Of a DNA stretch of 64,000 nucleotides, positions 56,699 through 60,140 are shown one piece after another; within the stretch, counting starts at the first letter, position 1; each line of letters begins with the position of its first letter. The notes below the pieces were generated by a model. The model made no database searches, was not told the DNA's origin, and saw nothing but the letters and a program-made list of their open reading frames with translations. Both the position numbers and the translations under genes were made by a program. Source of the stretch: Anaerolineaceae bacterium (GTDB taxonomy: Bacteria > Chloroflexota > Anaerolineae > Anaerolineales > Anaerolineaceae); NCBI GenBank assembly GCA_016841445.1, contig JAENZD010000001.1, positions 1,736,001-1,800,000 on the forward strand. The letters are read 5' to 3'.

Positions 56699-56726
56699 TG
56701 CAACTTAACTAATATTTTCACGTATA
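56699..56726 (+). promoter_or_regulatory. ECF-type (SigW-like) promoter upstream of ECF sigma gene
   Basis: TGCAAC(56699-56704)-N16-CGTATA(56721-56726). Confidence 0.65.
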
Positions 56727-56755
56727 GATTTATAGAAGAGCATTAAGGAGATAAC

Positions 56756-57352
56756 GTGACTGGCGCTGAAGCCCAATGGATCGAACAGGCTTTACAAGGT
56801 GATGACAATGCATTTGGATTTCTGGTTGAGTCATACCAGAAACCTGTCTATAGTCTATGCAATCGGATGCTTGGGAACGCTAACGACGCAGAAGATGCTG
56901 CCCAGGAGAGTTTTATCCGGGCTTATCAGCACCTTAAAAAATATAACCAGGATCGTTCTTTCACAACCTGGCTGCTTTCAATCGCTTCACATTACTGCAT
57001 CGACCAAATTAGAAAGCGACGTTTGCCAGTGGTTCCAATGGATGAATTACCGGTGGAGATCATCTCAGATAATCGGTCTCCACAACCTGAAAATCACCTC
57101 CGGCAGCGTGAGAAAGATGCCCTAATTCAAAAAATGTTGAATGGTCTCAAACCAACAGACCGGGCAGCCATCGTTCTCAGGTACTGGTATGAATTTTCAG
57201 AAGTTGAAATATCTGAAACCTTAAAGATCTCGGTTAGCGCTGTAAAAAGTCGCTTATTTCGAGCCCGAAGGTCACTTGCGGATGCCTGGATTACCAATAG
57301 TTCCAAATCCGCAATTAAAGAAAGGAAACCTAATGAGTCACCAGCCTTTTGA
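56756..57352 (+). CDS. ECF RNA polymerase sigma factor (GTG start)
   Basis: LGNANDAEDAAQESFIRAYQHL (sigma2); KISVSAVKSRLFRARRSLAD (sigma4); AAGGAG RBS. Confidence 0.93.
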   Translation: MTGAEAQWIEQALQGDDNAFGFLVESYQKPVYSLCNRMLGNANDAEDAAQESFIRAYQHLKKYNQDRSFTTWLLSIASHYCIDQIRKRRLPVVPMDELPVEIISDNRSPQPENHLRQREKDALIQKMLNGLKPTDRAAIVLRYWYEFSEVEISETLKISVSAVKSRLFRARRSLADAWITNSSKSAIKERKPNESPAF

Positions 57353-57863
57353 AATATGGATTTTTTCGGATGATTCACTGGATGAAGCACAGCAGCACAT
57401 ATTAGAAGAACATCTGGAAAGTTGTCAAACCTGCACTACCCTTTCAAACGCCGTGACGATGGCTACCAGCGTCCTATCAACCAGTGAGTCTCCTTCACCT
57501 CAACCTGGTTTCACGCAGCGCTGGCACAACAAGCTGGCACTGCACCGGCAGTATCAAAAATCACGCAGGACCTGGCTCCTGACACTGGCAGGTTTCATCC
57601 TGGCAAATATCATCTTGTTGAGCGTTGTCTTTTTTGACCTGACCACTATCAACTGGCCTTATGAGCTTGGACAAATCGTTGTGAAAATAAGTTTGATCGC
57701 GACCCATTCCAGGCAATATTGGCGGGCGATATCTAACCTCGCTAATGCCTTTCCTGTCATCATCCCCACGTTTTTCGTTTTGGTTGCTGCGCTGATTGCA
57801 GCCGGCATCTTCCTGACAATTACCTGGATAAGATCGATAAAAAAATTAATAAAAACATATTAA
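57333..57863 (+). CDS. Zinc-binding anti-sigma factor (ZAS), membrane-anchored
   Basis: HLESCQTC (HxxxCxxC) near N-terminus; TM segments; overlaps sigma gene; start refined to ATG 57333. Confidence 0.8.
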   Translation: MSHQPFEIWIFSDDSLDEAQQHILEEHLESCQTCTTLSNAVTMATSVLSTSESPSPQPGFTQRWHNKLALHRQYQKSRRTWLLTLAGFILANIILLSVVFFDLTTINWPYELGQIVVKISLIATHSRQYWRAISNLANAFPVIIPTFFVLVAALIAAGIFLTITWIRSIKKLIKTY

Positions 57864-57875
57864 AGGAGTAAAGAA

Positions 57876-58940
57876 ATGAAAAAAATAGTTAAATTCTTGA
57901 TTGTCGTAAATGTTTTGCTGATGTTCGTGTTCGCCTTTCCATCAAGCGTGTCCGCTGAAGCACTGACAGATGGTCAAACCATCTTTGGTGATGACTACAC
58001 TCTTGAAAGCGGCCGCATCCTCAATGGTGACCTAACCGTCATCGGCGGTGTGGTTGTTATCAAAAATGAGGCCACGGTCAAAGGAGATGTCTTCGTTGTT
58101 GGCGGTGTTGTAAAAGTTAACGGCACGATTGAAGGCAGTCTTTCAGCGATAGGCAGCACCGTCACGTTGGATGAGAACGCCCTGATTGAGGGTGACCTGA
58201 ATGTGCCCGGCAGCCACGTAACACGTTCATCGGGTGCTGAGGTCGAAGGTGATCAAATTACCAACTGGGTCAGTCCTCTGGAGGATTTTGATTTCCCCAT
58301 GGTAACCACACCCACGATTGTCCGGCGGGACCGGTTTGTCATGCCAGTCATCAACAGTATTGGCCGCTTCTTAGGAATGACATTGCTTGTATCTGCCCTT
58401 GGTGCGTTACTTCTCCTGATCATGCCAAAATCAGCTGAACGAATGGCGCAAGCTTTGACCGCCAAACCATGGGAGCTTTTAGGTTACGGCGCATTGACGG
58501 GTCTGGCTTTCGTTGTAGCAGTTTTGATCCTGACGATAACCATATGCTTGATACCTGTGGCTGCTCTGCTCGGGCTTGCCTTTGGTTTAGCGATGCTTCT
58601 TGGTTGGGTGACCCTGGGTTATGAGTTCGGGAAACTGATCGTTGAGGGAATCTTCAAATCCCATTGGACAGCTATTCCAACCGCTGTGATAGGTAACTTA
58701 TCCCTTTATGTCCTCTCACGCACAATCAGGCTCATCCCATGCATCGGTGGTTTCCTGGTCATGGTCATATCACTCTTTGGATTGGGGATGGTCGTGGTCA
58801 CCCTGTTCGGGAAGAAATCCTACCCTCGAAAAAATGGGGAAAATATCATTGAACCTATCGTATTAAATGCTGAAAATGTGTATAGTGAGGATGGTCAGGA
58901 AGATCAAGAAAATCTGCCTGATGAAGAAAAAGAATCCTAA
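57876..58940 (+). CDS. Polymer-forming/bactofilin-like domain with polytopic C-terminus
   Basis: Signal peptide; ILNGDLTVIGGVVVIKNEATVKGDVFVVGGVVKVNGTIEGSLSAIGSTVTLDENALIEGDL repeats; several TM helices. Confidence 0.75.
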   Translation: MKKIVKFLIVVNVLLMFVFAFPSSVSAEALTDGQTIFGDDYTLESGRILNGDLTVIGGVVVIKNEATVKGDVFVVGGVVKVNGTIEGSLSAIGSTVTLDENALIEGDLNVPGSHVTRSSGAEVEGDQITNWVSPLEDFDFPMVTTPTIVRRDRFVMPVINSIGRFLGMTLLVSALGALLLLIMPKSAERMAQALTAKPWELLGYGALTGLAFVVAVLILTITICLIPVAALLGLAFGLAMLLGWVTLGYEFGKLIVEGIFKSHWTAIPTAVIGNLSLYVLSRTIRLIPCIGGFLVMVISLFGLGMVVVTLFGKKSYPRKNGENIIEPIVLNAENVYSEDGQEDQENLPDEEKES

Positions 58941-58960
58941 CTGGTCATCCGATCTACAAA

Positions 58961-58992
58961 GCAGCCATCCTTCCGATAAGAAGGATGGCTGC
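58961..58992. repeat. Strong inverted repeat between bactofilin-like and lipoprotein genes
   Basis: GCAGCCATCCTTC-CGATAA-GAAGGATGGCTGC, 13-bp perfect stem, no T-tract. Confidence 0.8.
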
Positions 58993-59054
58993 ACAATCAA
59001 AGGTTACCTGGCATCATTCCTGCAGTAATGTTGATGTATAACTAGGAGATAATT

Positions 59055-59906
59055 ATGAAAAAACAACTTATAGCCGCTGTCGCTGTCCTTCTCTTTGCAG
59101 GATTTGCATGTTCAATCCAAAATTTACAGATGGAAACATCTGAGACGCGCACAGTGGAAATCAATGCGCCGTTACCTGAGAACCTTGAGGATACTGAGAT
59201 CCTTTTTCGGATGAGCGGCGGTGAATTCACCCTACGACCTGGCGCAACCGACCTTGTCAATGGATTGATCACTTATAATGTTGAACAATGGGAACCCGAA
59301 TTCACCCACCGTGAAAACCTGTACCAGATCAAACAGTCCGATCAACTAACGATCTCAGGTATTCCAACCGATGATGTCATCAACACCTGGGACCTCGCTC
59401 TCTCAACTGGCGTGCCAATTGACCTGACGATTGAAGGCGGCGCCAGCGATAACACGTTTGACCTGTCTGGGCTCCAACTGACCAACCTGAACATCCTCCA
59501 GGGGGCAAGTGAGACCATATTGACGTTTGACCAGCCAAATCCCATAGAAATGGACTTGCTCGCATTTACAACTGGGGCATCCTCTGCAAAGATTTTTGGC
59601 CTTGCGAATGCCAACTTTAATACCATGACATTTTCTGGCGGTGCTGGAAATTACACCCTGGATTTCAGCGGCAGCTTGTCGCATGATGCTTCCGTCGAAT
59701 TAAAAGCCGGTGCCAGCAATCTCAAGATCATCGTTCCATCAAGTATGCGAGTTCAGGTTAATAACTTAAGTTCCGTCAGCGTTATCAATACAGAAGGCAC
59801 CTGGTTATTAACGGATGATACCTACACCACGTTGGAAGAAGGATTCCTCTTAACGATCAATCTTAATTTAACCGTAGGCAACGTCACGTTGATCCATGAA
59901 GATTGA
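59055..59906 (+). CDS. Lipoprotein with toast_rack/DUF4097-like adhesin domain
   Basis: Lipobox FAGFAC; MSGGEFTLRPGATDLVNGLITYNVEQWEP resembles toast_rack; repetitive beta-rich GGASDNTFDLSGLQL / GGAGNYTLDFSG. Confidence 0.65.
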   Translation: MKKQLIAAVAVLLFAGFACSIQNLQMETSETRTVEINAPLPENLEDTEILFRMSGGEFTLRPGATDLVNGLITYNVEQWEPEFTHRENLYQIKQSDQLTISGIPTDDVINTWDLALSTGVPIDLTIEGGASDNTFDLSGLQLTNLNILQGASETILTFDQPNPIEMDLLAFTTGASSAKIFGLANANFNTMTFSGGAGNYTLDFSGSLSHDASVELKAGASNLKIIVPSSMRVQVNNLSSVSVINTEGTWLLTDDTYTTLEEGFLLTINLNLTVGNVTLIHED

Positions 59907-59978: not shown

Positions 59979-60140
59979 ACTCACTGTCCGGGTGCCCCCC
60001 TCACCCGGGCAGTGAGCATTTAAATGGGGATAATCAAATAAAACCTTCGCCTTTTTTCAAAAAAAGATCCTAAGAGTATCATCAAAGATAAGCAAAAACA
60101 AAAAGTAAAACCCTCTCCCTTTTTGAAAGGGAGAGGGTTT
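59979..60140 (+). ncRNA. Candidate small RNA (about 160 nt)
   Basis: Predicted start just before 15-bp hairpin CTCACTGTCCGGGTG-CCCCCCT-CACCCGGGCAGTGAG (59980-60016); ends at hairpin 60108-60140; no ORF. Confidence 0.45.
60108..60140. terminator. Terminator hairpin between convergent units (best T-tract on minus strand, for nadD)
   Basis: AAACCCTCTCCCTTT-TTG-AAAGGGAGAGGGTTT. Confidence 0.75.

Follow-up and report, generated by a model that had tools for sequence, protein, structure and literature searches.

A predicted autoregulated ECF sigma factor operon and its PspA-less Psp/Lia-like regulon in the Anaerolineaceae

The operon described here lies within a window of 64,000 nucleotides, the whole stretch of DNA that was analysed, from an uncultured Anaerolineaceae bacterium. 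The names attached to the nearest loci suggest that this host is probably close to Brevefilum. It can best be explained as an autoregulated sigma-W-type envelope-stress system that would run a Psp/Lia-like regulon without PspA, a reading derived from sequence comparison and to which a probability of about 0.8 is assigned. Comparison of related genomes showed that the genes for the sigma factor, its putative inhibitor and an exported beta-helix protein are conserved as a unit, that the presence of the sigma gene tracks the predicted promoter TGCAAC-N16-CGTATA, and that this promoter precedes the operon together with unlinked genes for PspC, for DUF2807/LiaF-TM/toast_rack proteins and for other membrane proteins. 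The control of envelope stress is almost undescribed in the Chloroflexota, and the system offers a first inferred response of this kind for the phylum.

Composition of the operon

The first gene (56756..57352, + strand) has a GTG start, preceded by AAGGAGATAAC, and encodes a SigW-like sigma factor of 198 residues. Sigma70_r2 was matched at 4e-21, and the best sequence match in the PDB was B. subtilis SigW (3e-29). The protein contains sigma2 and sigma4 domains only (PF04542 and PF08281, both above cut-off), which places it among the ECF (group IV) sigma factors. Its best NCBIfam family was PRK09641, the SigW equivalog, yet the score of 145 bits is below the cut-off of 209. The second gene (57333..57863, + strand, ATG start) encodes a membrane anti-sigma factor of 176 residues, the profile of which matches RsiW (3e-6). 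An N-terminal HxxxCxxC motif (HLESCQTC), putatively involved in zinc and sigma binding, and the adjacent ECF gene assign the protein to the zinc anti-sigma factors (ASDI, ZAS), the match to Pfam zf-HC2 being below that model's cut-off (0.0025). The ECF gene, the ZAS-type inhibitor and the overlap between the two reading frames, which amounts to 20 bases, had all been proposed in a preliminary description of this DNA and were borne out.

Anti-sigma factors of the RsiW type have a single membrane helix and an extracytoplasmic domain, and are cut by the proteases PrsW and RasP. The window protein departs from this topology, with two membrane helices predicted by simple hydropathy at about residues 82-100 and 142-160, a loop of ∼40 residues between them and no large outer domain detected by the same means. 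By this measure, the other orthologues have two to four hydrophobic segments. The HxxxCxxC motif is retained in 27/29 anti-sigma orthologues. It has been lost from two, encoded at L069:808-1302 and L070:5185-5727, in which the operon is intact, and zinc would thus appear not to be indispensable.

Retention of this motif in all but two orthologues could also be taken to indicate an ECF system that answers a specific non-envelope cue, such as redox state via the zinc motif, with the Psp/Lia-like genes an incidental or minor part of the regulon; in soluble anti-sigma factors, HxxxCxxC-type motifs often do sense redox (PMC7406223). However, the operon is kept where the motif is lost, membrane-bound zinc anti-sigma factors are common and the zinc of RsiW is structural (PMC7406223), and the predicted targets described below are overwhelmingly membrane or exported proteins. 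Such a cue is therefore considered improbable in comparison with envelope stress.

The third gene (57876..58940, + strand) encodes a bactofilin-like beta-helix protein of 354 residues that is predicted to be exported and to have four or five membrane helices. In the AlphaFold2 model, a signal-peptide helix (residues 2-20) is followed by a beta-helix (about 34-130; pLDDT mostly about 90 or more) and then by the membrane helices. Likeness to the bactofilins (PF04519; PDB 2n3d and 6rib) lies in the short beta-helix and in the match of 16/30 orthologues to the Pfam model (E 0.01 or better), whereas the window protein is fused to membrane helices and falls just under the gathering cut-off (27.2 versus 27.9 bits). 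Foldseek with the full model gave no significant PDB match, 2n3d and 6rib appearing only at E 0.4, and a sequence search of the PDB with the bactofilin-like profile gave no match. Given that the bactofilin-like domain is preceded by a signal peptide, for which 3/30 orthologues have a lipobox instead (strict pattern), its predicted position is external to the membrane, in contrast to that of the cytoplasmic bactofilins. Thus, the earlier suggestion of a polymer-forming-domain protein with several membrane helices held, with the domain itself borderline, and is refined to an exported protein whose domain would be located outside the membrane.

The fourth gene (59055..59906, + strand) encodes a lipoprotein of 283 residues that can be assigned to the Toast_rack family (PF17115; Toast_rack_N 6e-12, above cut-off). 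Its predicted structure (pLDDT 91) resembles the Toastrack structure 4QRK both by fold (3e-15) and by sequence (1e-26), in agreement with the beta-rich, toast_rack-like lipoprotein previously suggested. The lipobox reads LFAGFAC, and given that its cysteine, Cys19, is invariant across 30 orthologues, the protein is predicted to reside outside the membrane, so that the beta-helix domains of both this and the bactofilin-like protein would be external. Such a placement is at variance with the intracellular Toastrack domain argued for by Ravi et al. 2024 (PMC11237479) but is consistent with the extracellular DUF4097 described for LiaG (PMC9239133). Between the third and fourth genes lies a hairpin (58961..58992, + strand; -24.2 kcal/mol) with a perfect 13-bp stem, a 6-base loop and no T run, possibly a partial terminator or processing site that lowers or processes the downstream transcript. 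A second hairpin, terminator-like by sequence, is found 3' of the operon in the direction of the convergent nadD gene (59980..60016, + strand).

Conservation of the operon and of its promoter

Gene-neighbourhood conservation, which had been put forward as a check on the module, was assessed at 40 toast_rack loci of family relatives. In 39 of these, the upstream genes accompany toast_rack as far as the contig reaches, and wherever the contig suffices the order is sigma, anti-sigma, bactofilin-like, toast_rack; in two of the 40 loci BLAST did not recognise the anti-sigma gene because of its divergence. Only L094, a lone toast_rack copy, clearly departs from this pattern. The operon is usually flanked by dNK and nadD in the family, and a profile search of genome contigs recovered the four-gene arrangement at the family loci again. 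The four genes are therefore co-conserved. In most other Anaerolineales, the contig search placed toast_rack apart from sigma; the bactofilin-like gene followed sigma and anti-sigma in 23 of the 24 sampled members of the order outside the family, the contig of the last ending first. A sigma match (E 1e-30 or better) was obtained in 109/151 genomes of the order, a count in which not every match need be orthologous, and the core of sigma, anti-sigma and exported bactofilin-like genes recurs in other Chloroflexota classes. At two loci from other lineages, L368 and L381, toast_rack lies between the anti-sigma and bactofilin-like genes.

The ECF-type promoter predicted upstream of the sigma gene occupies 56699..56726 (+ strand), with TGCAAC at 56699-56704, a gap of 16 bases and CGTATA at 56721-56726. 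Both this SigW-type architecture and its fit to autoregulation had been anticipated, and the footprint supports them: [TC]G[CA]AAC-N16-CGTA was found ∼60 bases (mostly 57-63) 5' of the sigma start in 35/36 family orthologues, and the remaining one has a gap of 17 bases instead of 16. As the matched bases were set by the search pattern, information was judged at the unfixed positions, and these were also conserved (0.6-1.7 bits), with T and G before CGTA and T and A after it. At sigma loci of other families and classes, related sites are mostly present, some with a 17-base gap; no related site was seen upstream of the most diverged of these loci. The AAC/CGT promoter, the adjacent anti-sigma gene and the predicted autoregulation, here judged from conservation of sequence only, agree with traits of ECF sigma factors. 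Given that AAC/CGT promoters and autoregulation are general to ECFs (PMC8103513), another ECF sigma factor could in principle share these sites.

Distribution of the promoter motif and predicted regulon

In the host genome (3.35 Mb), three exact matches to TGCAAC-N16-CGTATA were found, each directly 5' of a gene start, and none to the reversed pattern. Across 61 family genomes, 168 exact sites were found versus 9 for the reversed control. The motif is both enriched in the genome-wide scan that had been advised and conserved at the sigma gene. By contrast, with up to two mismatches the host genome showed no enrichment (137 sites versus 210 for the control), and none of ten relaxed candidates inspected there was clearly 5' of an envelope gene. 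Therefore, only the full motif is informative.

The motif also disappears with the sigma gene. In two close relatives (L220 and L222), dNK, toast_rack and nadD are kept, and the sigma, anti-sigma and bactofilin-like genes are missing between dNK and toast_rack. The best ECF of these genomes has 41-43% identity, versus 63-68% in six sigma holders, and they contain no exact site, compared with one to six in each of the six. Eight genomes of genus g15 have neither a sigma match nor a motif site, and the exact motif was absent from all ten genomes of these two groups, which have lost the sigma gene. Sites were present in 51/56 genomes with sigma versus 0/10 without it (Fisher test, 1e-8), a value that serves only as a guide, given the relatedness of the genomes and the choice of the ten after the data had been seen. 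Among the family genomes, five have sigma but no exact site, although in at least two of these the sigma gene has the variant CGCAAC, and three incomplete genomes were scored sigma-negative yet contain one or two sites.

The lack of enrichment at two mismatches would be expected if base composition or repeats had given rise to the motif matches and the four genes were chance neighbours. The enrichment of the exact motif and the sites at unlinked toast_rack genes (see below) speak against this, and operon conservation and co-loss already refute it; chance was accordingly rejected and retains only a minute likelihood.

The first gene was read after about 110 exact sites, family assignment resting on scanned representatives and some sites inside open reading frames being attributable to chance. 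The genes most often found encoded sigma (14), members of the DUF2807/LiaF/toast_rack group (14), PspC (11) and a small membrane protein (8), followed by a family with the motif FLPFHAINEF (6: L130, L157, L177, L196, L202 and L209), Phage_holin_4_2 (4), LiaF-TM proteins (4), a second family with the start SDLFERVTG (3: L115, L116 and L176) and ABC ATPases (3). Sensor, YccF, DUF4013, Rce1-like, patatin and long bactofilin proteins occurred in ones or twos. The one scanned member of each of the FLPFHAINEF and SDLFERVTG families (L177 and L176, respectively) had no Pfam match. The long bactofilin-like proteins behind the motif and outside the operon (490-498 residues; L197:277-1773 and L200:828-2300) are apparently exported.

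Four transcription units stand out in the host. The three exact sites precede the window operon, the only PspC gene found and a gene for a small membrane protein; a site with a single mismatch, exact at the genus orthologues, precedes a DUF2807 lipoprotein gene followed by a LiaF-TM-like gene. Exact sites lie 5' of the orthologues of the same four units in two genus relatives (G010 and G044). Upstream sequence could be read at 52 toast_rack loci that lie apart from the operon; at 13 of these the motif begins no more than 100 bases from the start of the gene, compared with 0 for the reversed control. No match to PspA (PF04012) was found in the host genome, which is 98.9% complete. The motif thus appears to define a regulon, its sites preceding mainly envelope-protein genes. 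The four-gene sensor/effector cassette of the preliminary description is largely supported, its sensor role being putative, and is refined in that its sigma factor is predicted also to drive genes located elsewhere, namely pspC, DUF2807/LiaF-TM genes and those for small membrane proteins.

Signal reception and relation to known systems

According to the proposed mechanism, the two-helix membrane anti-sigma factor would hold the sigma factor via its HxxxCxxC domain until it is released by membrane or wall damage, for which the exported bactofilin-like and toast_rack proteins may act as sensors. Free sigma factor would then raise expression of its own operon and of the PspC/Lia-like set, the products of which may stabilise the membrane without PspA, and the extra anti-sigma factor produced would reset the switch. 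The exported proteins are candidate sensors because the anti-sigma factor has two helices and no large outer domain, and "stress sensor" is a putative label for the module.

In an account that differs from this mechanism in the sensing step only, the role of the bactofilin-like and toast_rack proteins is simply to reinforce the cell surface as effectors, and signal reception falls wholly to the anti-sigma factor and proteases. Both proteins are under the sigma factor's own promoter and unlinked toast_rack genes are likewise predicted to belong to the regulon, as would be expected of effectors. Against this, the bactofilin-like gene is almost never found apart from sigma and anti-sigma, other classes included, a pattern more usual for a regulatory partner, and the anti-sigma factor has no large outer domain. 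Plain effectors are nevertheless a serious contender, at rather less than even odds. A bolder form of the sensor reading, in which an exported bactofilin-like lattice bearing the toast_rack lipoprotein gates the two-helix anti-sigma factor from the external side of the membrane in a phylum-wide, PspA-independent Psp system, is speculative and on balance unlikely.

The preferred reading, that of a sigma-W-type envelope-stress system, has its closest parallel in B. subtilis SigW-RsiW, the nearest sigma and anti-sigma factors by sequence, with which it shares an AAC/CGTA promoter and predicted autoregulation. The sigma-W regulon includes yvlABCD and pspA (PMC3498285), and YvlC has a PspC domain and YvlB a toast_rack-type DUF4097 (PMC3498285, PMC9239133), so that yvlABCD parallels the PspC and toast_rack targets predicted here. 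The present system differs in a sigma factor that scores under the SigW cut-off (145 versus 209 bits), in the two predicted helices of the anti-sigma factor, in the exported bactofilin-like protein of the operon and in that PspA was not found. With the Psp/Lia responses (Ravi et al. 2024, PMC11237479), it has in common an output of PspC, LiaF-TM and Toastrack domains. However, the predicted driver is an ECF sigma factor rather than LiaRS or PspF, PspA was not detected, and Toastrack occurs as a lipoprotein predicted to be outside the membrane. An operon-linked sigma factor is mentioned in the same work in the context of DUF2089, which is not the present one.

Every part is a member of a known family or similar to one. 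A search of the open-access literature, a scope outside which most subscription journals fall, found no account of the operon, the regulon or a bactofilin-ECF operon, nor any description of how these parts are combined, of how widely they occur in the phylum or of the PspA-less Psp/Lia output. The system would provide a natural setting for studying the function of PspC, LiaF-TM and toast_rack proteins where PspA is absent, and is an example of bactofilin-like and toast_rack domains predicted on the outer side of the membrane. The operon is also present in Longilinea arvoryzae KOME-1 and Leptolinea sp. HRD-7, and the predicted regulon, with its defined promoter, can be tested in such named strains.
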